DNA of 64,000 nucleotides, taken from Cellulomonas algicola. GTDB lineage: Bacteria; Actinomycetota; Actinomycetes; Actinomycetales; Cellulomonadaceae. The DNA lies in contig NZ_BHYL01000059.1 in NCBI RefSeq assembly GCF_003851725.1, forward strand, positions 1 to 64,000, read 5' to 3'. Positions 8,053 through 47,163 of the stretch are shown here, piece after piece (position 1 is the stretch's first letter; each line of letters begins with the position of its first letter). Below the pieces are notes generated by a model. It was not told the DNA's origin. It saw nothing but the letters and a program-made list of their open reading frames with translations, and searched no databases. A program made the translations under genes and the position numbers.

Positions 8053-8150
8053 GCGCAGGACCCTAGGACGGACCACCGACAGCGCCGGGTACGGCGCTGG
8101 CAGGATGAGCGTGCACGTCGCCCGCCGCGCTCCCATGACGCTCGGGCGGC

Positions 8151-9614: not shown

Positions 9615-9615
9615 C

Positions 9616-19985: not shown

Positions 19986-21275
19986 TCAGTGCACGCGGCC
20001 GGCCGAGATGTCGGCCATTAGGTCATCGACGAGCACCTCCTCGTAGGCGGCCTGTCTGCGGTTGCGCATCTCTACGGCGAGGGCTGGATCCCACGGGGTC
20101 TCACCGACGACGCGGTTGAGTGCGGCAAGCGGGTCGGCTCCCGCCAGCGTCAGCGAGCGCATGTAGTCGTCCGCACCCATGCGCCAGGGGACGGCGCCAG
20201 CTATTGCCGCAAGCATGTCGCGCACGTGCCGCAGGCCTGCCTGGTCGAAGTCCGCTCGGACGGCGACGCGCCATCCCGCGACCGGCAAGAGGGCGAGCGC
20301 TCCGAGCTCGCGGGACGACGGGGTTCCGTTGATGCAGATGACCGGCGAGTCGCCCTCGACATAGCGGTCCGCGGCGGCGGTCAGGATTGACGGGTTCTCA
20401 GTCACGAAGACCAGCTGTCCAGCTGCGCGCGGTCCGCCCCAAGAAGGCGCTCGGACGAGCTCTCGGGGCGGGATGGTGACGAGGGAACCTGCGGGAATCG
20501 ACCAGCCGGCGGGGAGGACGCCCAGACAGCTGACGCCGCCGATGACGTCGTCGCTGTGCACGCCGACGTACTCCCAGGCGTCGCGGTACGCCAAACCTGC
20601 CGGGACCCAGCCGCCTCCGACGAGAACCGCTTGCGCGAGGCTGGCGGTACGCATCCCTTCGTCCAGGGCGTGCGGTGAGCCGAGGGCCGCCGAGATGAAG
20701 CGCCGGTCGCGGCGGACGTTCCCCGATGGGAGCTCGGCGAGGATCGCGAACACGGAACCCATGAGCGCGCGCCAGTCGGGAAGCCTCTCGAGGCTGCCCG
20801 CCCACTTGTTGCGGCGCAGGTGCTCCCATACGCCTTCGGCGTCGAGGTGACAGGCGACGTGCGGTGGTAGTGATGCGACACCGTCGACCACGGCCTGGCG
20901 CATCTGGCTTCGCGTGACGTCACGTTGGGCGCGCGCTCGTACGCGAGCGCCCAACGTTCGACGGGTCGCGTGCGCTGCGACCATGCCCGGCGTAATCCCC
21001 GGCGCCGTCGTGCTCAGCTTGCGAGTCAGGTGCGCGAGGTCGACGCGTCGCCGTGCGTGCGCCTTCAGCGGCGTGTTCCCTGTGAGTGACTGGCCGGCGC
21101 TTCGTTCCTCCGCCGACGCGGGCGCCGTGACGGTGATGAACCCTTCGACCATGTGGATGTCGCCGCGCCTGTCGCCCGCGTCTGCTACGGCGGCCCACAG
21201 CCAGAGCAGGTCGTCATCGACGAAGCGTGTGACGTCCAGCGCGGCGCAGTCCTGCTGGCAGACACGACAGGTCAC
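19986..21275 (-). CDS. jetD: Wadjet type II nuclease subunit JetD (DUF2399, TOPRIM)
   Basis: The 429-residue protein ends with a TOPRIM-like DUF2399 domain: VFVTENPS gives the catalytic Glu293, and RVAVRADFDQAG gives the acidic pair Asp342 and Asp344. In Wadjet, JetD is the topoisomerase VI-like nuclease that cuts small circular DNA after it has been extruded by the JetABC complex. The N-terminal region holds a CxxC pair (VTCRVCQQDC). I place the start at GTG 21275, which overlaps the jetC stop (GTGA), although the frame is open further upstream. It is the last gene of the operon. Confidence 0.88.
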   Translation of the reverse strand: MTCRVCQQDCAALDVTRFVDDDLLWLWAAVADAGDRRGDIHMVEGFITVTAPASAEERSAGQSLTGNTPLKAHARRRVDLAHLTRKLSTTAPGITPGMVAAHATRRTLGARVRARAQRDVTRSQMRQAVVDGVASLPPHVACHLDAEGVWEHLRRNKWAGSLERLPDWRALMGSVFAILAELPSGNVRRDRRFISAALGSPHALDEGMRTASLAQAVLVGGGWVPAGLAYRDAWEYVGVHSDDVIGGVSCLGVLPAGWSIPAGSLVTIPPRELVRAPSWGGPRAAGQLVFVTENPSILTAAADRYVEGDSPVICINGTPSSRELGALALLPVAGWRVAVRADFDQAGLRHVRDMLAAIAGAVPWRMGADDYMRSLTLAGADPLAALNRVVGETPWDPALAVEMRNRRQAAYEEVLVDDLMADISAGRVH

Positions 21276-24200: not shown

Positions 24201-25399
24201 CGGATCAGCCGGGCGGCTTGCTTGTTGACCGTCGAGATGGCGCTACGCGCGGCGGTCAGTGCGGCGCCGGCGAGGCGCCGCGCTGAGTCCGCCTGGATCG
24301 CCAGACCGGCGATCCGCTCGCTGTCCTTGTACGCCTCGGACGCGATGAGGACGCTGTGGCGCGCCTCGTCCTCTGCGATGTGCTCCTCAAGGTTCGTGAT
24401 CTCGCGCTGAGCTGCCTCGACGGCGTCCCGGGCGCTCTTGTCCTTGGTCTTGGCTTCGGCCAGGGAGCGCGTGGCCCGCTTCAGGTCGCTCACAGCGGTT
24501 CGCGCCAGGCGGGCACGTTCCGCAGCGACGGTCGACATCCGGTTCGCCCACGTGTCGGAGAACCGCACCAGGTCGTCAGCGTTGCGCTGCTCCAGCTCGT
24601 ACGCCTCCCGGGTCGCCTTCGATGCGTCCAAGGCGCTGGCGGTGTCCGCAATGACCTGGGAGGCCACGGTGGGCAGGGCAGCCCGCAACGCGTCCGCAGC
24701 CTCACGGTGGTTCGTGTTCGCCAGCAGCGCCGGGTTGCGCACGATGCGCAGCCGGGCAGTCATCGCCTTGACCTGCTCGACGGACGCGCCGTCAAGCACG
24801 GTGTTGCCGAGGTGCGCGACGTAGCTGTCGTGCTCGTTGCGGTCCCAGACTGTGCCGCCGAGCCGCTGCACGGCCTCGCGAAACGTGTCCAGCCCGAGCG
24901 CCTCACCGGCGCTGGTCGTGAGCTCCAGGTCGTGCCCGCGGCCGGGCACGCCGGGCACCACGAACGGGTACACGACGACGGCCGGCGAGCTCTTCTCGGA
25001 GTACTGCATGCGGACACCGAAACTCAGCGTCTGTTCTGCGCCGGGCGAGGTGAACGTCAGCCACGCGTATCCGTACTGCTTCTTGCCCTTGCGGTCGGCG
25101 CGCGTTCCGCCCATCAGGAGGCTGAGGGTCGTGGTGCGGTTGCGGCCGGCGCGCAGCTGGTTGGCGTCCAGGTCGTACAGGTAGGTCATCAGCGCCTCGA
25201 GCAACGTCGTCTTGCCGGTGCCGTTGGGGCCGCGCAGCAGGATGCGGCCGGACGGTGCGCTGAGGGTCATCGGGCCGAAGTCCCACACGTTGTCGACGCC
25301 AGCGCCGGTCAGATGCCAGCGCCGGTCGAACCGCTCCGGGTCTCCGGACGGCAGCGTGACGTACTTCTCGAAGAGATCCGGGTCGATCTCGAGGCTCAC
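21272..25399 (-). CDS. jetC: Wadjet type II SMC-like ATPase JetC (TIGR02680 type)
   Basis: The 1375-residue protein has the SMC/MukB-like plan: an N-terminal Walker A GPNGTGKT (residues 57-64), two very long Ala/Glu/Arg-rich coiled coils around a hinge-like centre, and a C-terminal half-site with the signature STGEARL (1263-1269) and Walker B VLVLDE (Asp1297, Glu1298). In Wadjet it is the motor that loop-extrudes DNA and identifies small circles such as plasmids. The length and the companion genes fit the actinobacterial type II system. It overlaps jetB and jetD by four bases each. Confidence 0.92.
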   Translation of the reverse strand: MSLEIDPDLFEKYVTLPSGDPERFDRRWHLTGAGVDNVWDFGPMTLSAPSGRILLRGPNGTGKTTLLEALMTYLYDLDANQLRAGRNRTTTLSLLMGGTRADRKGKKQYGYAWLTFTSPGAEQTLSFGVRMQYSEKSSPAVVVYPFVVPGVPGRGHDLELTTSAGEALGLDTFREAVQRLGGTVWDRNEHDSYVAHLGNTVLDGASVEQVKAMTARLRIVRNPALLANTNHREAADALRAALPTVASQVIADTASALDASKATREAYELEQRNADDLVRFSDTWANRMSTVAAERARLARTAVSDLKRATRSLAEAKTKDKSARDAVEAAQREITNLEEHIAEDEARHSVLIASEAYKDSERIAGLAIQADSARRLAGAALTAARSAISTVNKQAARLIRQSNSAAAELTHAVASAQNADPHAAGANVTVGLTTAPIGDVGDATLDHISDVILDADPKTLREAADDWARRANQAEVDAERASLALTDFEDVETADATAGAAERDAAQLAAQADDAARHLSQAVKDTQAAQTALAANLREWAQDNVDLIAPHAEQAGWGTQDVDELTSMEPSAAHQQVAAWLTYSQTRAATLAAGLRARASGEDDARQRALDDADERDRQAQEFEDGKLTDLPRPAWADARPQDELLGAALTWAPDIIMSSDERDAVEWALGSAGVLGAHLIPDGAQAGSWTVRTDQPPVHPNLAAVLGVDPNHPQAATAAAVLERIGFDDLDTAGLVITRDGHFRSGPMVAAAPSPVPTAQFVGAHARRTAALARAAELRAEALHLRAQAATHASNARDLTGKARQVERRIEQAPTLTALVAAEARRAASASAHSALSARAHSRSLEAEQLREAATGALRLWVGRTEAAGLPASKPALVALRVSGESTARALRAAGQPIPRLLDTFTDLLTEAADAQERRREAVELIDEARTTHGEAHTCAIRHEQARSQIGIAADAARQEVQRLEQELRSLATKLTGARTTKAERDVQAGSATALLAAAEAKVTEAEPAVQKTMADVRAALAVAGVARAVLPTTRAGTDVDDDTLLAALETATQDRPQTSGVVLRNARDVARAALQGTWQIDNSEDHGVETYVVTFDSHPYTPHQAATLAMQRRERAQRAVNEQEREALETFVLGTLPKAISVAWTTMRDWVNDVNKMMARTTASSGVGVQIRVDIKDHDVLGDAVWTVYQLACRKSVHERTDQESETLRDALDQLIRSNDGATLEEQVLNAVDVRSWVSVHYVITRNNQEPTRWSNRIGVSTGEARLITLAPMVAAAAAAYDKLGPAAARVLVLDEVPAEVDPHGRGGLARYIAELDLDLVCTSFGWDGAPGATDGVDAWDLERASDGTVIETRSVLRGTELLNGDPDSWMLS

Positions 25400-26592
25400 A
25401 GCAGCGTCTCCTGAGGCTGGTCAGATGCTGTCCGGTCGATGGGTGCCCGTTCGGTGCGGGCGCGCGGCGGCGCCGGTCGTGACTTCCAGCGGCCGGTCGC
25501 GGGGGAGAACTTCCACGTGCCGTCGACGTGCAGCAGGTTGAGCGGGACCAGCAGCGCCTTGATCTTGCTGGCGAGCAGGTGGGGGTTGGCGGCGTCCTCG
25601 GCCGCCCACGCGGGGTTGGTGGCGGCGAGCTCGGCGAGAATCTCGGTGACCTGCGCGTAGGTGACCTGCCGCCACCCGGTCCACCCCTCGACGGCGTCAC
25701 CTCCAGCTGCGACGAGGTCGCACAGGTCGAGCGCAGCCTGCGCGACCGTCCCGACACCCGGAAGGACCTGAGGTCCAAGCTCGCGGGGGTACCGGAAGGA
25801 CTCGGCAGGCACGACCCACGCGAGGCCCTCTTCGCGCCGTTCCCGGTACAGGGCGAACGCGGCGGCGAGCGCTCGCGAGTCACGGTCACCGGCGCGCCGG
25901 CGGAGCCAGTCCGCCTCGTCAGGGTCGAGCTCGATGGTGTGGATGACGGCCTCGTCGAGAACGCGACGTCGCATCCGGCGCATGTCGTCGTTCTCACGTC
26001 GCAGGTCGCTGAGGAAGGTGTGCGGGTCGTCGAGCGGGTCCGTGAGGCTGAAGTTGGCGATGAGGTGCAGCAGGCGCTGGTGGTGGATGGCCACGAGAAC
26101 CTCAGGGTCGTCGCTGGCCGCGTAGTCGTCGCTGTTGCCGTCCTTCTCCTCCAGGACGCCGCGGTCGTACAGCTCACGCAGACCGGCCAGCAGCGCGCGC
26201 CGTTCGGTGATGTCGCCGGTTACGGGGACACCTGCGGTGGCGGCTGCTTCGTGGGCGGCGACGGCGATGGCACCGAGCCGCTCCAGGGGGCGTAGCCGTT
26301 CGGCGCCGGCCGCGATGAGGAACATCCACGTGTGGGCGGCGGCCCTCAGTCCCGAGGACGACAGATGCGCGGGCGGGGCGGTCTTGCGCAGGCGCACGAA
26401 GTCGCGCGCGATGGTGATCTGCCAGCCGAGCCTGCTGAACGTGTCCTTGATGACCTTCTCGTGGCGGCGGATCGTGGCGATCTGCTCGTCATCGCGTCCG
26501 GCGACGAGCCACGGGTTCAGCATCAGCCGGCGCAGGACGGCGGCGATCTCCATCGAGGCATTCGGGTTGTACACGTCGAGGCGCTCGGTCAT
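25396..26592 (-). CDS. jetB: Wadjet type II subunit JetB (DUF2398, TIGR02678 type)
   Basis: The 398-residue protein fits DUF2398, the MukE-like winged-helix subunit of type II Wadjet. It opens with a helical region (AAVLRRLMLNPWLVAGRDDE), has the family-like block GWQITIARDFVRLRKTAPP, and contains winged-helix segments through the middle. JetB bridges the JetC heads together with JetA. Assignment relies on gene order and length as well as on the sequence blocks. It overlaps jetA by four bases at its start and jetC by four at its stop, so the proteins are likely made in fixed ratio. Confidence 0.87.
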   Translation of the reverse strand: MTERLDVYNPNASMEIAAVLRRLMLNPWLVAGRDDEQIATIRRHEKVIKDTFSRLGWQITIARDFVRLRKTAPPAHLSSSGLRAAAHTWMFLIAAGAERLRPLERLGAIAVAAHEAAATAGVPVTGDITERRALLAGLRELYDRGVLEEKDGNSDDYAASDDPEVLVAIHHQRLLHLIANFSLTDPLDDPHTFLSDLRRENDDMRRMRRRVLDEAVIHTIELDPDEADWLRRRAGDRDSRALAAAFALYRERREEGLAWVVPAESFRYPRELGPQVLPGVGTVAQAALDLCDLVAAGGDAVEGWTGWRQVTYAQVTEILAELAATNPAWAAEDAANPHLLASKIKALLVPLNLLHVDGTWKFSPATGRWKSRPAPPRARTERAPIDRTASDQPQETLL

Positions 26593-28121
26593 GACGTCCT
26601 CTCAGCTGACGCCAGCTCGTTGCCTCGGGTGGTTCGCGGAGCGCGACCCGGCAGGTGGAAGGTCACGGTGTGGTTCGGCAAGATGGCCCGCCATCCCGGC
26701 CCGCAGATGACCGCGTCGGTGCCGGCAGCAGCAATCGTGCAGGCCAGCCCATCGCTGGTACCGGTGCGCGAGCGCGTGCTGGTCGACACACGCCCGCGGA
26801 TCGCTGCAAGCACGGCGGCGTGGGCGAGATGGGCGGCTGTGTGGGTGAGCTCCTGCCCGGGACGGGCACTGAGGATCTCGCGAAGCGCACGCAGGTGCTC
26901 CAAGCGTCGCAGCTCCTGCCGGGCGGCGATCTCGGCGCGGGCGTCTGCGGCATCGCGTGGTGCGGCGGCACGGCCTCGGCTCCCCGTGCGGGCAGTGCGC
27001 CGCAAGTTCTCCGGGACGGCGATCTGCGGCCCGGTGCGCCAGGACGGGACACGGTCGATGGTGTCGTCCTCGTCAGGGGCGCCGTAGAGCTTGCGCCACG
27101 GGTGGTCGCCGAGCGTGGCCGCTGCCAGCTGCTCGGCAAGCGCCGGGTGCGCGTGGCATGCGCGCGCGAGGGCGAGCGCTCGTGCACGGGTGGTCCCCTG
27201 CTCGCTGGAGCTCGTCAGCCGTCGGACGTTGGCATGCAGCGTGGGAATGGCTCGCACGAGACGCTTCACGAACCGTGCGACGCGGCCGTCGGTCTGGTCG
27301 CACCACGCGTCCAGGTCGTGCCACTCGCTGGCGGCACCGCCACGCGCGGCCCGGATGGCGCCGGCGCGGATCTTGTCGGCGTCGGGTGAGGCGGTGACGG
27401 ACGCGTCGGCGAGCTGGTCGAAGCGGGGTCGGAGCTCGTCGAGAGCGGCGCGCGCCCGGGCGACGCCTCGTTCCAGGTGCATGGCGGCGCGGGTCGCGTA
27501 CTCGACGAGCAGCCCCTTGAGCTCGTCGGTGGTCTGGGTGTCAAGGTCGTACCGTTCGGCCATCGCAACGATCGCGTCTTCAGCCGCGACGACGCCGGAG
27601 TCGAGGTTCTCCAGCGCGTCGAACGCAGCACGCACGTGACTGGCGACGGCGGGGATGTCCCGGAGTTGCCCGTCGCGGCTCATCGTGGCGAGCACCTCGA
27701 GAGCGGTAACCAGCGTGTTCAGGTTGGTGATCGGGATCTCGCGCAGCACCTGCTGGGTTCGCATGTCGGCGTACAAGCGATGGACACGCCGCCCAGGCCC
27801 CGTGATGGCGTAGCGGAAGTTGCGAGCGAGAAGTTGGGCGGCGGCGCGGGCATCGGACGGGTCCGGCCGGCCGGTCACCGCCCGCCACCGCTGGAGGCTT
27901 TCCAGGCGTCGCACAACGGCGTCGTCGTCGAGGGTGATCTCCTGCGTGCGCAGCCGGGCGACGATCTGGGTTGGCCGCAGGTCGTCAACGGCCGCCTCAA
28001 GGACATCGAGAATGGCGGCGTACTCATCGGCGTGCTCGCTGAGCCAATACGCGACGACCGAGCGGCCGTCGTCCACGGCGATGATGACGCTCTCGCTCGA
28101 AGCGGCCGCCTCGCTGGTCAC
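26589..28121 (-). CDS. jetA: Wadjet type II kleisin-like subunit JetA (DUF2397, TIGR02677 type)
   Basis: The 510-residue protein fits DUF2397: an N-terminal winged-helix region (VVAYWLSEHADEYAAILDVL), the block YAITGPGRRVHRLYADM, and a long helical middle. DUF2397 proteins are the MukF/kleisin-like first subunit of the type II Wadjet complex, tying the JetC heads together. The GTG start at 28121 follows a weak GAGG. It is the first gene of the jetABCD operon, so the promoter should lie in the 28122-28300 interval. Confidence 0.87.
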   Translation of the reverse strand: MTSEAAASSESVIIAVDDGRSVVAYWLSEHADEYAAILDVLEAAVDDLRPTQIVARLRTQEITLDDDAVVRRLESLQRWRAVTGRPDPSDARAAAQLLARNFRYAITGPGRRVHRLYADMRTQQVLREIPITNLNTLVTALEVLATMSRDGQLRDIPAVASHVRAAFDALENLDSGVVAAEDAIVAMAERYDLDTQTTDELKGLLVEYATRAAMHLERGVARARAALDELRPRFDQLADASVTASPDADKIRAGAIRAARGGAASEWHDLDAWCDQTDGRVARFVKRLVRAIPTLHANVRRLTSSSEQGTTRARALALARACHAHPALAEQLAAATLGDHPWRKLYGAPDEDDTIDRVPSWRTGPQIAVPENLRRTARTGSRGRAAAPRDAADARAEIAARQELRRLEHLRALREILSARPGQELTHTAAHLAHAAVLAAIRGRVSTSTRSRTGTSDGLACTIAAAGTDAVICGPGWRAILPNHTVTFHLPGRAPRTTRGNELASAERTS

Positions 28122-28766
28122 GGGTCCTCACGGGATTGTCGATCAGTTGTCTGGAAGGTACTCGCAGCCCCCGACAACTACATCGGCATGCAGGGCCAGC
28201 ACCGTTACTGGCTCGCCAGGTCAGGATGAGGAATGCGCTGACCGTCCTCATGATCTCGGCCCCTCGCAGCGACCGAACGACCGCCGTGAGGTGAGCGCCG
28301 GATGGAGTCAGCAACGCGTTGGCCGCGTTGAGCGACGACCGCGACGTTCACAGGTCGACTGCCGTTCGGTCTGCTGCTGTCGTAGATGGTGGCGATAGAG
28401 GAGTCCCGAGAGGACGCACCCCGTTCGACACCGACCGGCCGGTCTTCCGTGCGGGGTTCGTGCTCTAGGTGTGGCTCCCACAGCCACGCGTGCCGGTGTC
28501 TTGCGCTCGGCCGAATGGCGGCGGGGGGGCGGTGAGATGGGCTCCCGCTCGTGTGGTGACTCCGACCGGCGCCATAGCAGCACAGCATCGCGGATCGAAT
28601 GGCCATTGTGACGCCTGGAGACAGCACGTCGTGCCGGAGGGTCCTCTTGCAACGCGAGTTATTTTGGCGGGCGCGGAGGAATGGCAACTACCACCTCGTT
28701 GCGGCCCACTGTCAGAGTCTGGCGATAGAATGGCGTCGACACTGATCGATGGAGGGCGGTGACGAA
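28122..28766. other. Divergent promoter interval between the Wadjet and Kiwa-like operons
   Basis: No gene is supported in this 645-base stretch. It must hold the leftward jet promoter and the rightward kwa promoter. A TAGAAT hexamer at 28726-28731, about 35 bases before the kwaA start, is a plausible -10 element, but no well-spaced -35 is evident. Confidence 0.4.
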
Positions 28767-29294
28767 GTGCTGCGTGCAAGACTCTTTCTCATTTCTTACG
28801 TACCGCTGCTGTGGATCATCGCGCTGCAGCATTGGCCGACCGGCGTCAACGACTGGACGGGTTACCTGCCAACCAGCGGCGTACTCGCACTGAGCGTGAT
28901 TGGACTGGGTGATGCGTTCAACCTGACGCTCGCCCCCGCGCGCCTCGGAGTCCTCCCAGTCCGAATCGAAAACGTCACGGATGAGGGAGCGAACGCTGCC
29001 GCGTACCTCGTGACCTACCTGCTGCCGTTCGTCTCCGTCAGCCTCGACGAGTGGAATGCGTGGGCCGCGCACGCCGTCTTCTTTATCGTGCTGTTCATCA
29101 TCTTCGTCCGGTCAAACTTCGGGCTGATCAACCCAACGATGTACCTGCTCGGCTGGAAGGTTATCCAGGCTGACATTCTCGCTGGCGAATGGGGCGGACA
29201 TACTCGCCGTGTCACGCTCCTCGCGAAGGAGATCCCGCCGCCTGGTAACGTGCGAGTTCGGAAGATGGCAGGTGGGTTTCGGCTCGAGGAGTGA
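28767..29294 (+). CDS. kwaA: Kiwa-like membrane protein KwaA
   Basis: The 175-residue protein has four hydrophobic segments (around LFLISYVPLLWIIAL, GVLALSVIGLGDAFN, AAYLVTYLLPFVSV and AVFFIVLFIIFV) and a cytoplasmic tail. In Kiwa, KwaA is a four-helix membrane protein that senses infection and holds KwaB at the membrane. A GTG at 28767 is preferred because a GGAGGG site lies 10 bases upstream; an ATG at 28749 is in frame. The gene overlaps kwaB by four bases. Identification depends mainly on the pairing with a DUF4868-like gene. Confidence 0.76.
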   Translation: MLRARLFLISYVPLLWIIALQHWPTGVNDWTGYLPTSGVLALSVIGLGDAFNLTLAPARLGVLPVRIENVTDEGANAAAYLVTYLLPFVSVSLDEWNAWAAHAVFFIVLFIIFVRSNFGLINPTMYLLGWKVIQADILAGEWGGHTRRVTLLAKEIPPPGNVRVRKMAGGFRLEE

Positions 29295-30283
29295 GCGGGC
29301 GAATGAACGGTGATGCAGCGCCGGACTGGACGGGCGTCGAACTTGCGGGCGACCCGACGATGTTCATCGGATGGCGCAGGTCGAACAAGCGCCTTGAAGC
29401 TCGTCGCGTGAGCCTCCACGAGGACACGTTCGAAGCGCTGCACGAGATCGGCGCGGCTGCGATCAGTCAACTACGGACGATGAGAGGACTTCCGTACTCG
29501 CCCTACGTGCACCCCGAGCTTGGTGAGGAGTACATCTATCTGCCGCTCGCCGCCGACGTGCCCGACTCCGACGGGCGTGGAAGCGATCTTGCGGGGCTGT
29601 GCCGAAACCTTGACGCCGTGCAGGAGATCACCGCCGAGGAGCTGCGCACGCATGACTTCCAGTTCTACGGCATTGCATACGCCAGTGGGGAGAACCTGGT
29701 CGCGTTCGTGCGCAAGAGCAACCCGCGCCGCACGTTGCAGGGGGCGCACAAGTTCTTCAAGTTCAGCGGCTCGCTGAAGCGAGTCGCGCGGCCCGACATC
29801 GTGCTGGAAGACACGGTTGATCTCGTCGTCACCCAGCGTGCGTTGGCGGTGTTGCGTTCGTTCTCGTTCGAGATGCTCGCTCCCGACGTTAACTTCTCGG
29901 AAGAGAACGTCCAACGGTATGTCGACGATCTTGTCGGTGCGCTGCAGGGCAAAGTCGTACTCTCCGCGGGGTCCATCGAGGCGCTCAGGGAGGTCAGCGG
30001 ACGCAAGACATCACTGGTAAAGCGGCTTAAGAACCTCCATTCCCGTGCATCGCAACTGCAAATCACGCCCGCATCCGTCCAAGAGATCCTACGAAGGCAC
30101 GACCTCGCGGAAGTCGTGCAGTTCGACGCAGACGGCAACGTGGTCCTCAATGTGGAGTCGGTAGAGGTGTTCGTGGACCTACTCGAAGGACGCTACTTCG
30201 AACAGGACTTCACCGGAGACGCGGTTCGCGCTGACCGCTTCCGTCGCCGGACGGTCCGCTCTTCGCCTCGCGAGGAGGCGTAA
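29291..30283 (+). CDS. kwaB: Kiwa-like effector KwaB (DUF4868)
   Basis: The 330-residue protein has the look of DUF4868: the block DFQFYGIAYASGENLVAFVR followed by KSNPRRTLQ, then FKFSGSLKR and PDIVLEDTVDLVVTQRALAV, with a helical C-terminal half. KwaB is the DNA-binding effector of Kiwa, which blocks phage replication or late transcription. Length matches known KwaB proteins of a little over 300 residues. The start overlaps the kwaA stop by four bases. Together with the adjacent jet operon this makes two known systems side by side. Confidence 0.8.
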   Translation: MSGRMNGDAAPDWTGVELAGDPTMFIGWRRSNKRLEARRVSLHEDTFEALHEIGAAAISQLRTMRGLPYSPYVHPELGEEYIYLPLAADVPDSDGRGSDLAGLCRNLDAVQEITAEELRTHDFQFYGIAYASGENLVAFVRKSNPRRTLQGAHKFFKFSGSLKRVARPDIVLEDTVDLVVTQRALAVLRSFSFEMLAPDVNFSEENVQRYVDDLVGALQGKVVLSAGSIEALREVSGRKTSLVKRLKNLHSRASQLQITPASVQEILRRHDLAEVVQFDADGNVVLNVESVEVFVDLLEGRYFEQDFTGDAVRADRFRRRTVRSSPREEA

Positions 30284-35828: not shown

Positions 35829-36086
35829 TTATGGGTGCTTCGTGGTTGGCTGCTCGACGAAGAACTCAGCGGGTGTTGTCTCAAGTGCATGCGCGAGCTG
35901 CCACATGGCGTGCAGCGAGAGGTTGCGTCTGCCGTTCTCGACGGCGCCGATGTAGGTGCGGTCGAGTTCGGATGCGTGAGCGAGCCGTTCCTGGCTCAGG
36001 CCGGCCGCATTGCGGATGCCTCTCAGTCGTGCCCCGAATGCGCGTCGTTGCGCGGCTTGCTCGTTCGGATCTGACACGCCGGTGAC
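35829..36086 (-). CDS. XRE family helix-turn-helix regulator
   Basis: The 85-residue protein is a single XRE domain: RRAFGARLRGIRNAAGLSQE, then RLAHASELDRTYIGAVENGR and RNLSLHAMWQLAHALETTPA, ending in a short FFVEQP tail. This compact form is typical of controller proteins of restriction systems and of phage-type repressors. The frame extends upstream to 36143, but that part translates the DNA repeats at 36109-36138 (PSTHSPSTHG), so the GTG at 36086 is preferred. It diverges from the operon starting at 36340 and is the likely regulator of both. Confidence 0.83.
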   Translation of the reverse strand, partial: VTGVSDPNEQAAQRRAFGARLRGIRNAAGLSQERLAHASELDRTYIGAVENGRRNLSLHAMWQLAHALETTPAEFFVEQPTTKHP

Positions 36087-36108
36087 GCTAGGTCCGGGCC
36101 GTCCATGG

Positions 36109-36314
36109 GTCGACGGACTATGAGTCGACGGACGATAAGTCACTGCGCCAGTGTCACACGTTGTATAGACGTTTGTGTCTAGCGCGAGGTCGGGGCGGCG
36201 TCGCGTTGTGGCGTGCGGCGCGGTCGCGGGAGACGTCGTTCGCGCAGAGCGGTGGTGGCGCGGGCGGTAGATGTGCGTACGATCGAGTGTTGACGATCAG
36301 TCGCCGGACTATCA
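36109..36314. promoter_or_regulatory. Three 15-base repeats, probable XRE operator sites
   Basis: GTCGACGGACTATGA (36109-36123) is followed directly by GTCGACGGACGATAA (36124-36138), and GTCGCCGGACTATCA occurs at 36300-36314. The first two lie next to the divergent XRE gene start and the third lies 26 bases before the start at 36340. A TTGACG at 36290 could be a -35 element. The arrangement suits shared repression of both directions. Confidence 0.6.
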
Positions 36315-36339
36315 GTCGCATCGACGTTCGGAGGCCGCC

Positions 36340-36600
36340 ATGGCCATCACCACCCGCAAGCCCGTCCGGCAGCGTTTCGTGCCCACAGGTCGACGTCGAC
36401 GACGCGAAGGCGGTGCCACGACGCCGGCCAGCCTGCGTAGCGGGCTGCAACGTCCCGCCCCCGAGAGGCCGCCACGCTCGACCGCCGGCAGCGTCTCGGT
36501 CGGGTGGCGTGCCAGCGCGGGACGCGCACCCCGGCGCACGACCGGTCAGGCGACGCCACCAGTGCTCCTCTCACCGAGTCCCGGCCAGGGGTCACGGTGA
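36340..36600 (+). CDS. Arg-rich 86-residue leader protein of the unknown operon
   Basis: The ATG at 36340 has a GGAGG site at 36330-36334. The product starts MAITTRKPVRQRFVPTGRRR and remains Arg/Pro/Ser-rich throughout, with no predicted fold. Its stop overlaps the next start (GTGA), so it could serve mainly to couple translation. It may also be a basic nucleic acid-binding protein. I know no relatives. Confidence 0.5.
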   Translation: MAITTRKPVRQRFVPTGRRRRREGGATTPASLRSGLQRPAPERPPRSTAGSVSVGWRASAGRAPRRTTGQATPPVLLSPSPGQGSR

Positions 36601-37319
36601 CCGCGCCGAAGGGCAGCCGCGACCTGCGCCCCGCCGCACGTGCGTTCCTGTCGCCGGAAGCGGCCGTCACGCTGCACGACGCAGCGGCCGAACCCCTCAC
36701 CCTCGAGCACGACACCGTGCAGAACCTGTTCGCCCTAGGGGTTCAGCTGGCAGCGCGTGATCGACGTCGGCGCACCACCAACAAGCCGAGGCTCACCCTC
36801 GAGGGACACGCGCAGTTCCTGGTGGGGCACGTCGACCTCGGACGCAAGCGAGGCCTACGTGCTGTCCGCGACGGTCTTGAACACTGCATCGGCGCCTTCG
36901 CTGGCGAACAGTTGCAGACCGCGACGGCCGAGCCGGACGCGTCACACAGCCCTCACAGGTCCGGCCGCGACCCCGCGTCGACGGACCCGATGCCCGAGCC
37001 TGCTGGCCTTATCGACGGCGGACTGTACGTCGAGAGGTCGCGGGCCGGCGACAACTTCGACGCGATCGTCGACCTCGCCCTCGGTGAAGGCATCGTCGTG
37101 CTCACCCGCCACGGCGCCCCGCAGCTTGTGCTCCTCGCATGGGAGGAGCACTGCCTGCAGCGAGAACGCGACGCTCAGCTGCGTGCGGCGTACTGGTCCG
37201 CTGTCCGCACCGGCGAGCGACCGTCCCAACCGCCGGACCCGACTGCGGCCCCGCCTGGCGCGGGTCCCGCAGCGCCGCAGCCCGACACGGACGAGGTCGG
37301 GAGCGGACATGACCGGTGA
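36597..37319 (+). CDS. Two-domain protein with Phd/YefM-like C-terminal domain, paralogue 1
   Basis: The 240-residue protein has an N-terminal domain shared with the gene at 37752: TVQNLFALGVQLAARD, then an Arg/Lys patch, then FLVGHVDLGRKRGLRAVRDG. The C-terminal domain (about residues 140-195, VERSRAGDNFDAIVDLALGE then GIVVLTRHGAPQLVLLAWEE) looks like a Phd/YefM antitoxin fold. No toxin of the Doc or YoeB type is adjacent. The tail is Pro-rich. The start GTG overlaps the leader stop and its own end overlaps the next gene by 11 bases, so the cluster is one operon. Confidence 0.68.
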   Translation: MTAPKGSRDLRPAARAFLSPEAAVTLHDAAAEPLTLEHDTVQNLFALGVQLAARDRRRRTTNKPRLTLEGHAQFLVGHVDLGRKRGLRAVRDGLEHCIGAFAGEQLQTATAEPDASHSPHRSGRDPASTDPMPEPAGLIDGGLYVERSRAGDNFDAIVDLALGEGIVVLTRHGAPQLVLLAWEEHCLQRERDAQLRAAYWSAVRTGERPSQPPDPTAAPPGAGPAAPQPDTDEVGSGHDR

Positions 37320-37755
37320 CCGCAATAAGGAACCGACGTCCGCCGCGGACGCCCTGGCGTCCCTGTTGGAGATCGATCCGTTCACCAGGGCTGGCGTCTG
37401 GGCGGTCGTCACGGCAAGCGGTGCCGTGCACCTCATCAACAGCACTGACGCCGACTCGGCGGTGACGGTCACTCGCCTCACCGGAGCGCTCGACACCGCA
37501 GATGCAGAGCAGGGCTTCCCGCTCGCGCATCTGCGCCGTGACGGCCACCCCGTGCAAGTCCTCGCGCTCGAGCACCTCACCAGCGACGGGCATCGCGCAG
37601 CGGGCGTCCTGGTCGGGGCCGACCTGCTCATGGCGCTCGAACCGCTCGGACCGAACGCACTGGTGACGTTCCGAGGAACGACGCCGGTGCGGTTGATCCA
37701 CGTCCTTCCGCCCGACGCCAGGTCGAGCATGTCAAAGCCGTCCGGGGGATCGTGA
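37309..37755 (+). CDS. Unknown protein, family shared with the gene at 43186
   Basis: The 148-residue protein starts at an ATG after a GGGAG site and overlaps the previous gene by 11 bases. Its core begins LLEIDPFTRAGVWAVVTASG and continues AVHLINSTDADSAVTVTRL, then a strand-rich half. The gene at 43186-43563 has the same core (LDPFSRSGAWDVVTERGARH) and the same length, so this is a real family with two members in the window. I cannot name it. No catalytic motif, signal or membrane segment is seen. Confidence 0.7.
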   Translation: MTGDRNKEPTSAADALASLLEIDPFTRAGVWAVVTASGAVHLINSTDADSAVTVTRLTGALDTADAEQGFPLAHLRRDGHPVQVLALEHLTSDGHRAAGVLVGADLLMALEPLGPNALVTFRGTTPVRLIHVLPPDARSSMSKPSGGS

Positions 37756-38435
37756 TGCTGACCCGACTGATCCTTCCCGGCGTGACGAGGGTGTGGCTGC
37801 GCCTGCCGGGCGAGGACGAACCAGCAACGATCGCGGCGTCGACGGCGCGAGCACTGTTCGCGCTCGGCGTCGGGCTCGGGCCACGACATGCCGTTCCTCG
37901 GTCCAAACGCGACCTTCCCGAGGTGACGGTCGACGGTCCCGCACGGTTCTTCGTGAGCGGCGTCGAGGTCGGCGAGAAACGAGGTCTGCGCACGATCCGA
38001 GTCGGCCTCGGCCACGTCCTCGACCTGCTCTCGGAGGTCGGCGCGCTGAACGAGGTCAGGCGGCGCGCCTACCCGGTGCCGGGATCGACCGGCCGTGCGT
38101 CCCACCTGGCTGGAGGTGTGGCTGGAGACGTGCCCGCCGAGGAGTTCGTCGACGTGGCCACTGCCCAGCAGCGGTTCGACGACATGATCGCCGCGATCGG
38201 CCAGGGACGTCGAGCTGTCCTCGTCCAGGACGGGACGCCAGTCGCGGTGATGTTGCCGTGGTCGCTTTGGCGCGACATGAACGCTGAACTGGCCTGGGCG
38301 CAGTACGTGCGCTGGGCGACGTGGGGCGAGGACGGCGTGTTCGACGCAGAGACTCACGTCGCTCTCCTGAGGGGTGGCCCGCCCTCGACCGAGGACCTTC
38401 GCGCACACAAGCTGGGCCGGGAGCGTCATGAATGA
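37752..38435 (+). CDS. Two-domain protein with Phd/YefM-like C-terminal domain, paralogue 2
   Basis: This 227-residue protein repeats the layout of the gene at 36597: an N-terminal domain with TARALFALGVGLGPRH and VSGVEVGEKRGLRTIRVGLG, and a C-terminal Phd/YefM-like part with VDVATAQQRFDDMIAAIGQG and RRAVLVQDGTPVAVMLPWSL. Two such proteins in one operon suggest a heterodimer or a duplicated antitoxin-like regulator. The GTG at 37752 overlaps the previous stop by four bases, and an ATG follows immediately. No toxin partner is apparent. Confidence 0.7.
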   Translation: MMLTRLILPGVTRVWLRLPGEDEPATIAASTARALFALGVGLGPRHAVPRSKRDLPEVTVDGPARFFVSGVEVGEKRGLRTIRVGLGHVLDLLSEVGALNEVRRRAYPVPGSTGRASHLAGGVAGDVPAEEFVDVATAQQRFDDMIAAIGQGRRAVLVQDGTPVAVMLPWSLWRDMNAELAWAQYVRWATWGEDGVFDAETHVALLRGGPPSTEDLRAHKLGRERHE

Positions 38436-38964
38436 CGACCACCGCCGGCCCCGGCCGACGCGGCCAACCTCGCCCGAACGCGCTAGCGGTATCCCGGACG
38501 ACGTGGGTTGCGCTCACGAGGTCGCATTCGAGACCGACCAGCGGCTGGCCGACATCCGGGCAGCGATGGCCGCCAGCAAGGCAGAGATCACCGACGCTGC
38601 GAGGCGGCTGGGCGTCGACGCCCGACAGCTGATTCCCGCCGCGCCCTGGGTGATCACCGGCACGGTGGACGACCGTGCCTTCTACATGCGTGAGCGCGGG
38701 GACCAGTACACGATCGTCATCGCGTCCGACGAGGAGCCCACCGTGCAGCCGTGGGGACGCCCTGACGCGCGTGCTATCACGGTACGAACTGGCGACGCCG
38801 ACGACATCTACATCGGAACGCCGCCGGACTACGGCCGAGCGATGGACTTCATCGTCGGAGTGATCCGCCAGCACCTTCGTCGCGCGTCGTGCCCGCACCC
38901 TCACCGGTCCGGCGACCGGTACTGCGCGGCCTGCGGGATCGCGTTCGACGACGCCGATGTCTAG
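38428..38964 (+). CDS. Unknown protein with C-terminal zinc ribbon
   Basis: The 178-residue protein has a helical middle (DQRLADIRAAMAASKAEITD then ARRLGVDARQL), a beta-rich domain (WVITGTVDDRAFYMRERGDQ then YTIVIASDEEP), and a C-terminal ribbon CPHPHRSGDRYCAACG whose three Cys and two His residues could bind zinc. Such short ribbons often mediate nucleic acid or protein contacts. It is the last gene of the operon and overlaps the previous stop by eight bases. I recognise no family. Confidence 0.65.
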   Translation: MNDDHRRPRPTRPTSPERASGIPDDVGCAHEVAFETDQRLADIRAAMAASKAEITDAARRLGVDARQLIPAAPWVITGTVDDRAFYMRERGDQYTIVIASDEEPTVQPWGRPDARAITVRTGDADDIYIGTPPDYGRAMDFIVGVIRQHLRRASCPHPHRSGDRYCAACGIAFDDADV

Positions 38965-43185: not shown

Positions 43186-43563
43186 CTATTCGACAAGGAA
43201 TCCGTCGTCGCCGATGAAGTCAGAGTATTCGTCGATCGGCATCTCGACGATGGACCGAACCGCACTGGTGACGCGCAGCGACCACGCACCGCCCCGGCCC
43301 AGAATGTGCAGGCGCATTGGCGCGCCGATGGCGATGCCTCTGCGACGCTCGTTGCCGACCGCGTAGTGCACTGAAAGCAGCGGAAGTGCGTCACCGTCAT
43401 CGTCCCGGCGCTGGAAGCGGTCAAAGTCGGCGTCAAGGGTGAGCGGTGCCCAACGTGTCACGACCACGTTGGGCCGCTGACAGACGAACAGGTGACGCGC
43501 CCCACGCTCGGTGACGACATCCCACGCACCGGAGCGACTGAACGGGTCAAGGACGCTCGTCAC
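43186..43563 (-). CDS. Unknown protein, family shared with the operon gene at 37309
   Basis: The 125-residue protein starts at GTG 43563 with a perfect AGGAGG six bases upstream. Its core LDPFSRSGAWDVVTERGARH and the strand series that follows align by eye with the gene at 37309 (IDPFTRAGVWAVVTASGAVH). Unlike that copy it is not in an operon with Phd-like genes, so it may be a solitary relative left by recombination. The function is unknown and no motif suggests an enzyme. Confidence 0.68.
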   Translation of the reverse strand: MTSVLDPFSRSGAWDVVTERGARHLFVCQRPNVVVTRWAPLTLDADFDRFQRRDDDGDALPLLSVHYAVGNERRRGIAIGAPMRLHILGRGGAWSLRVTSAVRSIVEMPIDEYSDFIGDDGFLVE

Positions 43564-43650
43564 GGCGTTCCTCCTCGGCGAGGTCACGCGACGGAGGGAC
43601 CGGTGATCGCGCTGCACGAAGTGGGCTGTCGTCCTGCGGGGCCGGCTCGG

Positions 43651-43887
43651 TCAGCGGTCGCCCGCATTGGAACTACCGGTCGCCGACTTGGTGCTGATGG
43701 AGACAAGCGTCCCGGATGAGGTGCTTGCGGACAACTCCGACGATGACCGCACCGTGTGGCCGTAGTGGGTGGCGTCCCTCAGTGGGGTCGCAACGTCCGC
43801 GCTGCGGATCGTGAACCTCTCGGCGTCGTCGGCTGCACCCCACTGCTGGACGCGGGGTCGGCGCCGGTCGAGATGACGATCGTGCAC
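43651..43887 (-). CDS. Possible gene fragment upstream of the unknown paralogue
   Basis: A 78-codon frame reads RVQQWGAADDAERFTIRSAD and continues with a Ser/Thr-rich tail. The third-position GC content looks coding. The upstream continuation lies in another frame (MVTRLVAWYVRERHERCTIV, about 43880-43940), suggesting a frameshifted gene. It lies just downstream of the polymorphic toxin immunity gene on the same strand, so it could be an old orphan immunity gene. Confidence 0.3.
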   Translation of the reverse strand: MHDRHLDRRRPRVQQWGAADDAERFTIRSADVATPLRDATHYGHTVRSSSELSASTSSGTLVSISTKSATGSSNAGDR

Positions 43888-44002
43888 CTCTCGTGCCGCT
43901 CCCGCACGTACCAGGCGACGAGTCTCGTCACCATTCTCGGTCGAACACCTTGCGCGGCGACGTGCTCAGGGACGGTCATCGGGGCCGGGGTAGGACCCGC
44001 GC

Positions 44003-44554
44003 TCAGGAAAGTTCGGCCAGACCAGCGGGCGTCAGCACGTGTGTGCCAGCAGTGAGCCGCTTCTCCACCCATACCGGCATGCGGTCTGGGGTCAGGTCGT
44101 TGATGCGGGCCCAGCCTTCCGCCAGTCTGTCCTGCAGCCACGGCGGCTGGTGCTCGACGTCGCGCGGGTGGGTGTGCTGGTCAGTGACATAGACGATTGG
44201 GTCAACCGCGACGTCCCAGGCAGGCTCGTGGTCGTAGTCGAATCGCGACGTCACCGCCGACGGGGGTGTCACCTGCAGGGTGAAGGTGTACCAGGTCCCC
44301 GCCCCCTCGCGGTACATGACGTCGCGCAGCTGCTTGGCAAGCTTCGCGACATCGCGCGGTGCGAGTGGTTGCGCTTGACGGTCCGGGTACGACACCTGCA
44401 GGCGTCCCTCGCTGGTGGACGAGACCGCGATGCGGCGATAGTCGAGAACCGTCCAGCCCGGCGCGACGGAACCGACCAGCGACCGCGCGATGGCGTCGAT
44501 GAGCCGGGCCTGCGCAAGCATCGGCGGGAGACCTTCGACGTCAGTCGACGACAT
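44003..44554 (-). CDS. Putative immunity protein for the adjacent endonuclease toxin
   Basis: The 183-residue protein begins MSSTDVEGLPPMLAQARLID and shows alternating helices and strands (GWTVLDYRRIAVSSTSEGRL, then GTWYTFTLQVTPPSAV), with no signal peptide. It matches no immunity family I can name, but its ATG overlaps the toxin gene stop by 14 bases on the same strand, the standard position for a cognate immunity gene. Tight coupling would ensure protection of the producer cell. The length is normal for such proteins. Confidence 0.68.
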   Translation of the reverse strand: MSSTDVEGLPPMLAQARLIDAIARSLVGSVAPGWTVLDYRRIAVSSTSEGRLQVSYPDRQAQPLAPRDVAKLAKQLRDVMYREGAGTWYTFTLQVTPPSAVTSRFDYDHEPAWDVAVDPIVYVTDQHTHPRDVEHQPPWLQDRLAEGWARINDLTPDRMPVWVEKRLTAGTHVLTPAGLAELS

Positions 44555-46787
44555 TCTCGAACACCTTGTCCTTCCAGGCACCGTTCTCGGACCACTCCAC
44601 GAGGATGCTGTCCGGGACCCGGCTCGATCCTACGTAGTCGGGTGTGATCCTCACGCTGACGTGGACGGGAGGGTGCCCGTCGATGAGCGAGCGCCACTGC
44701 TGCTCGAGCTCGTAGAAGCTGCCGGGACCGGAGCGGTTGACGCGTTCGAGCATCGCGACGATGTTGACGTACTCGCCGCCGCCGCCGTACATGTTCGCGT
44801 ACAGGTGGCCGCCGTCGTACCCAGGACCGCCCTCGGCGCCGACGCGCGTCTGTACAGACTCGGACCGGTCCGCCGCCCCGAGGGCCAGGTCGTCTGTATA
44901 TGCGACCTCCGTGCGCCCGTCGAGGCCGATCTCGAAGACGTGCGCGCCGCCGTGGTGCGGGTGGACGACGTAGGTGACGCCGTCCTGAGGGTTGTTCAGG
45001 TCGGCGTTGAGGTTGTTCAAGCCGCCGTAGGTCGTCTCGACGTACCGGACTCTCCCGTCGGCGTCGGTGTAGAAGTCCCCGCGGCCTTCCACGCGGTAGA
45101 GCGTCGAGGGGGCGAGGTCGGTGCGGGCGGCGAACGGCGTCCGCGACCCCGGGAAGCCGGAGTCGTCCGGTCGCACAGTGACCTCGAGCTCGGACGCGGG
45201 CCGCGGATACAGGTCCGGCACCGTCCGACCGTGCAGGGCGCCTGGCGCTGCGCCGGTCGGCGGCACGTCCGCGCGGGGCGCGGTCGCGTCCGGGGGCGGG
45301 CCTCCAGGGGAGCCCGCACCCCCGACGTGAGGCGTACCTCCGTCGAGCAGGCCACCACTGTGCGGAGCGTCGGCCCTGTGGCCGCCTCCCGGGCTCCCGT
45401 CGCCGCCGGTCCCACCAGAGGCCTGGTCGGCACGACCGTCGGCGGTGACGAGCTCCCGCTCGGGCACGTGGGCGCGCTCGGGCGCGTGTGTGCCGTCGAC
45501 AGTCGCACGGCTCTGCGGCATGGCGTCGACGTCGCGGACCGCGACGCCGCCGAGGCCGTCGTGGACGGTTCCCGAAGGCAGGTCGTCGAGCGTGCTGGTC
45601 GCGGGCGGCAGGTCGAGGGTGAGCGTCTCGTCCAGGCCCTCGACTCCGCGCAGGCCGGCGACGAGGTCGTCGAGCCGCGGGAGCGCGCCCCGCAGGCCGC
45701 GTGCCCCGAGGGCGAGCGGGTCCGTGAGGTCGACGATCTCGGCGCCGCGGGCCAGCCACGCCGAGACCTTGGCACCCTTGCCCGCCGCGTTGGCGGCGGT
45801 CGCGGCGCCCTTCGTCCCGGACACCGCAGCACCGGCGGGCAGGAGGACGGTCGCGATATTGAAGACCGCACCGCCGGCCGCGCGGCCCGGGTCGTCGTCC
45901 CAGGTGTCCCACGAGACCATGCCCTTGCCGAGCCCGATCCACGCGGTGCCGGTGCGCTGGGCGGAGTACACGCCGCTGCCGTCCGACAGGTGCATGACGA
46001 CACCCATGACGGTGAACGGGAACAGGTCCGACATGCCCATCCAGGTCTCGCGCAGCGTCGCGTTCGAGTACCGCCAGTCCCGGAACCCCACGAACCCCGC
46101 GAGCCCGGTCACGGTGCCCCACAGCCCGTCGACCACGACTCCGTCCCACACGAACCGCTTGACCTGGACCGCCGCCGCCTTCGGGCAGGCGTCCTCCCGC
46201 TTCACCGCCGAGCCCCACGGCATCGCCGCCTCCGCCGGCAACGCGGCGTAGCCATACCCGAGCGGGTCGTCCTCGCCGGTCGACGCATGCCACGGCGCCG
46301 CGCAGTACAGCGCCCGGATCTCGTTCGCGCACGCCCGCTCGGCCTCCCACAGGGCGACCTGCTGAGCGTTGACGCGCTCGACCAGGTCGGTGTTCGCGTC
46401 CACCAGGCCCTGGTCCTGCCGCCACTCGCTGTTCGACGCGATCGAGCTCCGGAACGCGCGCGCGTCGGTGCGGGTCCGGGCGAGCGACGCCTTGATCGGC
46501 CGGATCGCCTCCGCGTACCGGCGCAGCGCCGCGGCCAGCAGTTCGACCCCGTCGCCGACGTCGCGCGCACCCGTCTCCACGGGATCCATCACCGTGAACA
46601 ACCGGCCGGCCTCGGGCGCCTCGTAGACCGCCGACAGCCCACGCCACCGAGCGACGGCCTGCGCGCCGTGCTCCCGGAGCGCCGCACCCTGCGCCGCGAG
46701 CGCGTCCGCCGCGGCCAGCACGCCGTCCGGGTCGAGGGCGTCGCCCGGGATCGTGGTCGGGTCGATCGCGCGGTGGAGCGTCGACAT
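44541..46787 (-). CDS. Polymorphic toxin with DNA/RNA non-specific endonuclease C-terminus
   Basis: The 748-residue protein has a helical N-terminal part (residues about 1-180, with LAAQGAALREHGAQAVARWR) resembling WXG/LXG-type secreted toxin leaders, a middle with hydrophobic stretches around 260-340, a long Gly/Pro/Asp-rich linker (about 430-560), and a C-terminal nuclease. The tip contains YDGGHLYANM (His661) followed by NIVAMLERVN, the pattern of Endonuclea_NS_2 enzymes that cut DNA and RNA. No Sec signal is present, so export through a type VII-like route is inferred. ATG 46787 is chosen because the N-terminal homology begins there. The immunity gene overlaps its 3' end. Confidence 0.82.
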   Translation of the reverse strand: MSTLHRAIDPTTIPGDALDPDGVLAAADALAAQGAALREHGAQAVARWRGLSAVYEAPEAGRLFTVMDPVETGARDVGDGVELLAAALRRYAEAIRPIKASLARTRTDARAFRSSIASNSEWRQDQGLVDANTDLVERVNAQQVALWEAERACANEIRALYCAAPWHASTGEDDPLGYGYAALPAEAAMPWGSAVKREDACPKAAAVQVKRFVWDGVVVDGLWGTVTGLAGFVGFRDWRYSNATLRETWMGMSDLFPFTVMGVVMHLSDGSGVYSAQRTGTAWIGLGKGMVSWDTWDDDPGRAAGGAVFNIATVLLPAGAAVSGTKGAATAANAAGKGAKVSAWLARGAEIVDLTDPLALGARGLRGALPRLDDLVAGLRGVEGLDETLTLDLPPATSTLDDLPSGTVHDGLGGVAVRDVDAMPQSRATVDGTHAPERAHVPERELVTADGRADQASGGTGGDGSPGGGHRADAPHSGGLLDGGTPHVGGAGSPGGPPPDATAPRADVPPTGAAPGALHGRTVPDLYPRPASELEVTVRPDDSGFPGSRTPFAARTDLAPSTLYRVEGRGDFYTDADGRVRYVETTYGGLNNLNADLNNPQDGVTYVVHPHHGGAHVFEIGLDGRTEVAYTDDLALGAADRSESVQTRVGAEGGPGYDGGHLYANMYGGGGEYVNIVAMLERVNRSGPGSFYELEQQWRSLIDGHPPVHVSVRITPDYVGSSRVPDSILVEWSENGAWKDKVFENVVD

Positions 46788-47163
46788 CGTGGCCCCCGGC
46801 GGATCGGACGAAACGAACGCGCTGACCCTAGCGGCTGCCATCCTGACCGTGAGGCTGATGACCGGTGCACCACACGATCGCAGGACCCCGCCGGAGTTGG
46901 CTCCCGATGACGCCATGCCGGACGGGGCATCGCCGTCGCGGAGGCGACGACATCGTGGATCCAACCCGGGAGGGGAGTTGGCGCTGCAAGGGGCAAGAGC
47001 GCGCGGGACATCGGCAGCGGCGCCAATGCTTTGCCCGCCGCTGCGTGCGATTCCCGCTCTCGCGTCGCTGACAGCGCGGACGTTCGCGAAGGCGCCATTG
47101 GGCGCGCGGTTCGGCCGCTTCATCGCCGGTCTTGCGACCCCGGTGTGGGCCACCAGCCTTTTC
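46788..47163. other. Toxin promoter region
   Basis: No gene is supported. The first 100 bases upstream of the toxin start should hold its leftward promoter, though no strong -10/-35 pair stands out. A plus-strand frame continuous with the pseudogene at 47164 starts within this stretch at 47026 but has no ribosome site. Confidence 0.35.

Follow-up and report, generated by a model that had tools for sequence, protein, structure and literature searches.

A modular operon of Cellulomonas islands with a putative controller-protein-type switch

Introduction

What does an operon do when the gene facing it encodes a relative of the controller (C) proteins of restriction–modification (R-M) systems, and neither a nuclease nor a methyltransferase is recognised among its products? 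The question is raised by positions 35829–38964 of a 64,000-nt stretch of Cellulomonas algicola DNA (contig NZ_BHYL01000059.1, positions 1 to 64,000), hereafter the window, which is part of a 4.5-Mb assembly in 535 contigs and lies on a contig that continues to 85 kb. An earlier, sequence-only reading had proposed here an operon of five genes, modular, controlled by an XRE-family regulator and carried on mobile DNA. The answer to which we give a slight preference is a modular operon on mobile and defence islands of Cellulomonas, with a conflict function and an R-M-type controller switch. We call new here the C-protein switch on a non-restriction operon; the regulator type itself is known.

The regulator and its operators

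The elements of the locus are the following, where module letters denote protein families and G2 to G5 the window genes.

35829–36077, minus strand: XRE regulator of the R-M controller (C) protein type, 82 amino acids, GTG start at 36077 (HTH_31, C.AhdI and C.BclI matches)
36116–36141, no strand: predicted tandem C-box-like pair on the XRE side (1/16 mismatch to GACTNNNAGTC-N4-GACTNNNAGTC)
36292–36317, no strand: predicted tandem C-box-like pair on the operon side (1/16 mismatch to GACTNNNAGTC-N4-GACTNNNAGTC)
36340–36600, plus strand: proposed first gene, probably non-coding (leader region), with flat codon-position GC, empty family scans and no gene call
36597–37319, plus strand: G2, first copy of module C, N-terminal domain of unassigned family plus predicted Phd/YefM-type domain, 240 amino acids (paralogy, family survey)
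37309–37755, plus strand: G3, module B, small all-beta protein, 148 amino acids (AlphaFold2 mean pLDDT 85.1; family in 12/81 genus genomes)
37752–38435, plus strand: G4, second copy of module C, N-terminal domain 1–107, linker, predicted Phd/YefM-type domain at about 130–189 and C-terminal helices (AlphaFold2 model; best matches Phd, YefM, VapB and RelB)
38428–38964, plus strand: G5, module D, 178 amino acids, C-terminal C-x-H...C-x-x-C zinc ribbon (alignment A10; family in 8/81 genus genomes)

Among solved structures, the XRE protein is closest to R-M controller proteins, a type that the sequence-only reading had recognised neither in the regulator nor in its operators. In the PDB, a profile built from the window protein together with four relatives (53–70% identity to it) matched C.AhdI (9.3e-20), C.BclI (8.8e-18) and an R-M controller entry (6.9e-11); the further codes of this entry include 4iwr and 4i8t, the structures of C.Esp1396I in PMC3758141. 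The same two rows were best when the window protein alone was searched against the PDB with phmmer (C.AhdI 5.8e-15, C.BclI 3.1e-10), and sequence comparison thus identifies the protein as a C-protein homologue. The divergent gene that had been described opposite the operon is present, a longer version of its product matching Pfam HTH_31 at E 4.3e-13. Its start is better placed at 36077 than at 36143, because the longer version crosses the operators and the part common to relatives begins at 36077.

Between the regulator and the operon, the three 15-base repeats of the sequence-only reading give way to four 11-bp dyads in two tandem pairs, with GACNATNAGTC at 36116, 36131, 36292 and 36307. This pattern matches the window five times (the fifth at 48484) against 0.40 expected, a count reached in 0/100 shuffles. 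The layout of both pairs is of the C-box type: GACT-N3-AGTC twice, separated by a 4-bp gap, with dyads about 15 bp apart. Known C operators usually consist of two quasi-palindromes, GACTtatAGTC, with flanking TG...CA and a total length of ~35 bp, according to the available part of PMC3115060, and C-boxes with cooperative binding are described for C.Esp1396I in the accessible portion of PMC3758141. A narrower tandem pattern, derived from the window itself, occurs at two places in the 4.5-Mb assembly, and these are the two window pairs.

The operators were then surveyed across 19 loci (383,395 bases, window included) at up to 3/16 mismatches and with spacers of 0 to 11. The 4-bp spacer returned 13 pairs, of which 12 lie within 420 bp upstream of XRE genes of this family, counts that are partly non-independent since three pairs overlap a neighbour by one dyad (in the window, L021 and L037); each other spacer returned 0–2 pairs. 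With the window excluded, 9/10 pairs remain upstream of XRE genes of this family. Two relatives (L021 and L037) likewise carry a pair at each end of the intergenic region, and four more have single-sided or weaker pairs. On the operon side of L021, L037 and L040, one half-site of the pair reads TAC in place of GAC, and we suspect that it overlaps a promoter -10 element. Judged from regulator and operator sequences together, a C-protein-type switch on the operon is very probable.

Recurrence across the genus

A survey of 81 Cellulomonas genomes and a module scan of the 19 loci with local profiles, window included, located XRE-linked versions of the operon at 11 loci in 10 genomes, with modules shuffled among them; the remaining 8/19 loci hold operon parts without this XRE gene. 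The regulator is divergent from the operon in 9/11 XRE loci. The operons encode about four to nine small proteins, drawn in these 11 loci from module B (10), a Phd-type protein (10), a membrane hairpin (9), B2, a relative of B (9), module D (8, one partial), E (5) and F (4, one partial). The window, with the order C-B-C-D, is a reduced form relative to these. Fusions of B2 with C (L038:7739-8737) and of F with B (L037:7614-8744) link the modules together, and full-length C occurs in 8/81 genomes (G000, G014, G346, G356, G358, G364, G366 and G378), a count from which weak Phd-only matches are excluded, C having matched 33/81 in all.

A conserved modular operon is, on this evidence, nearly certain. 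The modular, XRE-controlled arrangement on mobile DNA suggested by the sequence-only reading finds support in the recurrence, the shuffled modules, the fusions and the operators conserved in part, and neither of two outcomes named beforehand as speaking against it (a confident assignment of every gene to a known maintenance or toxin–antitoxin (TA) operon, or a lack of conserved gene order) was found. The gene sequences point the same way: pN/pS was 0.21–0.74, so that amino-acid change was below silent change in 13/13 inter-locus gene pairs (significance not computed), and only one D pair was more conserved than the XRE gene (0.27–0.36).

These observations bear on whether the locus could be a degenerate C-protein-controlled R-M island, whose regulator persists beside an operon of unrelated filler. 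The C-type regulator would fit such an origin, as would a gene resembling type I methyltransferases, which lies ~5 kb away from the L038 operon, and, at L024, restriction-type proteins that include a restriction-subunit-like gene near the B genes. We disfavour this explanation and consider it very unlikely, since the modules accompany the regulator at 11 loci in 10 genomes, amino-acid change lies below silent change in the module genes, and the operators face the operon itself.

Several matches were kept out of these counts. Two other genes matching the XRE model (window 8544–8723 and L020 7316–7507) are different XRE genes, excluded by an ImmA/IrrE-type peptidase domain in the first case and by eye in the second. 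Loci L025 and L026, with weak D matches (5.3e-5 and 8.8e-4), showed ordinary core genes by eye and were unused, as was a weak match (L012) from the genome of the window itself. Alignment A8 does not include L113 or L109. A contig scan of close relatives with G4 gave no relative, and alignment A4 led to two loci.

A wider sample comprised 394 genomes of the class. Module C, scored for up to six candidates per genome, matched 112 of these; we reject the idea that full-length C is widespread, as none of the matches listed from other genera starts before model position 86, so that they cover mainly the Phd part. Module B matched eight genomes, seven outside the genus and mostly weak (2.9e-11 to 6.0e-4), and D matched five, four of them in one other genus and including G281, the source of one alignment row. 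Relatives of G5 were found in neither the phage nor the plasmid collection, and the plasmid collection held none of G4 or of the L020 C protein. The longer D relative of L020 matched three Mycobacterium or Mycolicibacterium plasmids at 24–28% identity and nothing in the phage collection. Among the papers listed by a thin search of an open library, no title described the operon.

Products of the operon

Four of the five proposed genes, spanning 36597–38964, stand as rightward, head-to-tail overlapping genes facing the regulator, with GC codon periodicity in all four (third-position GC 0.80–0.84) and homologues found for them. The fifth, 36340–36600, lacks a coding signal and is probably not a gene: its codon-position GC is flat (0.71/0.78/0.74), Pfam, PHROGs and NCBIfam scans gave no family hits, and a simple gene caller passed over it, which is weak evidence alone because the same caller missed the short XRE gene. 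An origin as a decayed membrane-hairpin or B2 gene was tried and rejected (best E 0.075, inconsistent alignments), and no convincing trace of the hairpin, B2, E or F modules was found within it.

As to the four genes themselves, the sequence-only reading had described two Phd/YefM-like proteins of shared architecture, one gene ending in a zinc ribbon, another member of the G3 family at 43186 and no visible small toxin, and each of these descriptions held up. At 33% identity (E 1e-16), the two Phd/YefM-like proteins are paralogous to each other. AlphaFold2 modelled G4 at a mean pLDDT of 83.2 and pTM of 0.50, with a poorly predicted linker at 108–125, and places the Phd/YefM-type domain at about 130–189 of 227 residues, behind the N-terminal domain. 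The best PDB profile match of module C is Rv2865 (E 1.3e-4, positions 135–187), and the 38 best Foldseek rows for the G4 model are all Phd, YefM, RelB or VapB antitoxins or TA complexes. VIA aligned the same model with Phd at Z 6.2 (rmsd 1.9 over 61 residues). In the L037 and L021 relatives, Phd-type Pfam matches are above cut-off, and the domain is also found there in separate small genes. Sequence matches and the predicted structure therefore assign the second domain of C to the Phd/YefM type; the N-terminal domain is hardly covered by rows of the structural search with VIA, and we claim no new fold for it.

The G3 model is all-beta except for an N-terminal helix. It found no clear fold match (Foldseek best E 0.18, VIA best Z 3.7), the rows being a mixture of biotin-binding barrels and Sm proteins, and we claim no fold-based function for module B because these matches are weak and mixed. 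In module D, the terminal C-x-H...C-x-x-C is invariant in 9/9 aligned members (alignment A10); longer D relatives carry a second, N-terminal Cys/His motif that the window protein lacks. Module E has many Cys and His near its C-terminal end (by eye). The hairpin is a protein of 117–123 amino acids with two membrane helices predicted by hydropathy from its hydrophobic stretches (three copies examined); it is present in most relatives and absent from the window operon.

In the library scans, not every family was run against every library. No known toxin family was found among G2–G5 (three of the four proteins were also compared with PADLOC) or among the module proteins scanned, and no nuclease or methyltransferase was recognised in G2–G5 or in the scanned module proteins, nor any relaxase, integrase or replication family in the latter. 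The B, C, D, E, F, B2 and hairpin proteins scanned against PHROGs, NCBIfam and PADLOC gave nothing at E 0.001, and in the libraries scanned nothing matched B, B2, the N-terminal domain of C, D, E, F or the hairpin at that threshold.

The Phd-type domain invites an alternative in which the operon is an addiction (TA-like) module, with the Phd-type proteins as antitoxins and the toxin supplied by the hairpin elsewhere and by the beta-barrel or zinc protein here. Phd/YefM antitoxins carry their DNA-binding domain at the N terminus with a toxin-binding tail behind it. In addition to the domain, the small overlapping genes are consistent with this possibility, as is a DUF2442 protein adjoining the B genes at L024:10604-11167, a locus without the XRE gene; DUF2442 is a domain of TA-like pairs. 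However, the Phd-type domain occupies the C-terminal half here, which is not its place in classical antitoxins, the beta-barrel model has no clear known fold, with the weak best scores given above, and the membrane protein is missing from the window. We regard addiction as a doubtful explanation overall. The DUF2442 protein (E 4.1e-12) also has an N-terminal part resembling proteins of L107 and L114 by eye.

Downstream of the operon, probable remains of a second copy are indicated by two further features.

43186–43617, minus strand: second module B gene, probably from the remains of a second copy (paralogy to G3; single-sequence match E 6.2e-8)
43640–43919, minus strand: decayed module D gene, broken up over three frames and interrupted by a stop (frame pieces)

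The former is a paralogue of 37309–37755 (33% identity, E 2e-11) and adjoins the decayed zinc-ribbon gene, which suggests that 43186–43919 is probably the decayed remains of a second copy. Beside it, at 44003–46841 (minus strand), is a large protein that ends in a DNA/RNA non-specific endonuclease domain (E 2.4e-17). The small gene that comes after it has no Pfam match and may be its immunity gene.

The genomic setting

A tRNA-Leu gene (8151–8225) opens the region that holds the operon, which lies ~28 kb inside it, and past this gene GC drops from 0.73–0.76 to mostly 0.63–0.72 (2-kb steps). A repeat of the tRNA-Leu end (at least 14 bases) that might mark the far end of the island was not found within the window, the only sequence searched. 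Three other operon loci (L020, L110 and L111) and one lone-B locus (L109) share one chromosomal tRNA-Leu(cag) site, and several operon loci lie near transposase, tRNA or defence genes. In the window, PADLOC profiles matched the Wadjet proteins JetB, JetC and JetD at 19986–26592. Elsewhere, neighbours include BrxA, BrxB and BrxC (L107), a SIR2-type protein (L111) and an E1-like protein (L112); L107, L024 and L113 are without the XRE gene.

Pairs of recombinase-like and DDE-transposase-like genes were located by tblastn near modules in 8/18 non-window loci.

L020:13049-15876, L024:4298-9836, L037:730-3535 and L040:3373-6188: recombinase-like/DDE-transposase-like unit
L041:10868-13642, L110:12056-14898, L111:3608-6453 and L113:9050-11414: recombinase-like/DDE-transposase-like unit

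In the two such pairs that were compared with Pfam, significant matches were absent for the first gene and those of the second stayed below cut-off; the recombinase-like label was given by eye. The unit is possibly a mobile element carrying these operons.

Such a setting could also reflect a housekeeping or transfer operon of the island, serving integration, excision, regulation or establishment (anti-defence included) and having no defence or addiction role, with the C-type protein as a plain repressor that allows a burst on entry. The recombinase-like and DDE-transposase-like pairs near modules would suit this alternative, as would the clustering of four loci at one tRNA-Leu site and the scanned module proteins, among which no toxin or enzyme was recognised. 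C-protein logic also suits post-transfer timing, as far as the available text of PMC3874152 describes it. Against it stand the absence of the pair from the window and, within the stretches fetched, from 10/18 non-window loci (tblastn, five query pairs, E 1e-4), and the lack of any relaxase, integrase or replication family match in the scanned module proteins. A transfer role is a real possibility that nonetheless falls short of an even chance.

Further features of the islands were observed in passing. The window's Wadjet system spans 19986–28121 (minus strand), the position of JetA (26589–28121) being deduced from gene order, and beside it lies a Kiwa-like pair (28749–30283, plus strand), whose first protein has no Pfam match and whose KwaB-like protein (29303–30283) matched at E 3.8e-4, below the curated cut-off. 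Just inside the island, 8508–10761 comprises two genes, one of them an XRE gene whose product carries a Peptidase_M78 (ImmA/IrrE-type) domain, and a similar-looking pair (by eye) lies near the operon at L020:5884-7549. Alpha/beta-hydrolase-like genes that look alike by eye flank the L039 D gene (L039:7647-10041) and the start of the window island (7252–8225), hinting that the two share an insertion hotspot. A search of L039 for a tRNA was negative.

What the operon may do

By analogy with known C proteins, a dimer of the regulator would bind one dyad and a second dimer would join it cooperatively. Since the operator pairs sit just upstream of both genes, the XRE protein may limit transcription of both itself and the operon. 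In R-M systems, delayed expression under C-protein timers shields a new host from a lethal enzyme. Entry of the operon into a host without the C protein would by the same analogy produce a sharp, transient change in expression that then settles, in line with the delay of the enzyme by C-protein timing in the available part of PMC3874152. More tentatively, the operon products may assemble into one complex. The Phd/YefM-type proteins, whose fold suggests both DNA binding and a protein partner, would bind DNA in it and engage the partner through the N-terminal domain or the C-terminal helices, and the beta-barrel and zinc proteins would be further subunits. Such a complex would either act against invading or competing DNA, as a defence, or keep the island in its host, as addiction.

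The divergence of the modules, the nearby defence genes and the reshuffling together suggest a conflict function, which we rate as evenly balanced; within it, defence is a tentative assignment and addiction an unlikely one. A more specific version, tentative as well and a little less probable than defence in general, is an undescribed modular anti-phage or anti-plasmid system of Actinomycetes with a C-protein timer and no nuclease or methyltransferase, in which interchangeable Phd-type DNA-binding, beta-barrel, zinc and hairpin subunits sense and act. The best candidate effector at most loci is the membrane protein with two helices, which the window operon is without.

A number of observations weigh against the favoured reading of a C-protein-switched conflict operon. 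Clear tandem C-boxes are confined to a minority of the XRE loci (4/11: the window, L021, L037 and L040), with the clear pair of L040 on the operon side only; 3/11 have weaker pairs (L110 with 2 mismatches, L020 with 3 and L111 with 4, the last equalled by 7/300 shuffles), and in L038, L041, L108 and L112 (4/11) no tandem C-box stands out, at least 163/300 shuffles equalling the best. In L038 and L112, the XRE gene is co-directional with the operon. That the XRE protein would act by repression rather than activation is suggested by analogy. For module C, no Foldseek match to the whole model reached E 0.001, the Phd-type Pfam scores of the window proteins (16.5 and 15.3) are below the cut-off of 29.8, and the VIA alignment of the G4 model with Phd falls in the range below Z 8 that can reflect a common arrangement. 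No effector was identified among the products, and the defence neighbours are ten proteins at six loci, chosen by eye and without a background rate. Alignment A10 also gave a weak PDB match to FlhB (E 0.0028), which we take as chance.

If the favoured reading holds, a C-type regulator and its operators on an operon without a recognised enzyme would imply products that are perhaps dangerous, or useful only when timed, and unnamed protein families become testable as a conflict system. The combination of a C-type regulator and tandem C-boxes, with R-M genes absent, also offers a search handle for hidden systems.

Relation to described systems

Three classes of described systems resemble the operon in part. 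Like the R-M switches of C.AhdI, C.BclI and C.Esp1396I, it has a small helix-turn-helix regulator near C.AhdI and tandem GACT-N3-AGTC dyads upstream of the regulator gene and of a second unit, as far as these are described in the available text of PMC3115060 and PMC3758141. Unlike them, it has no recognised endonuclease or methyltransferase; here each side of the divergent intergenic region carries an operator pair, and undescribed small families take the place of the enzymes.

With Phd/YefM type II TA systems, the operon shares a Phd/YefM-type DNA-binding fold, predicted in module C and in the separate small genes of L021 and L037. In contrast to those systems, the domain lies in the C-terminal half of the protein behind another domain, and the window operon has two copies of it, a separate C-type regulator and no recognised cognate toxin. 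The anti-phage systems of PADLOC-DB 2023 share islands with the operon, Wadjet lying in the window and BREX proteins at L107, whereas 0/7 scanned module proteins match any of its models at E up to 1.

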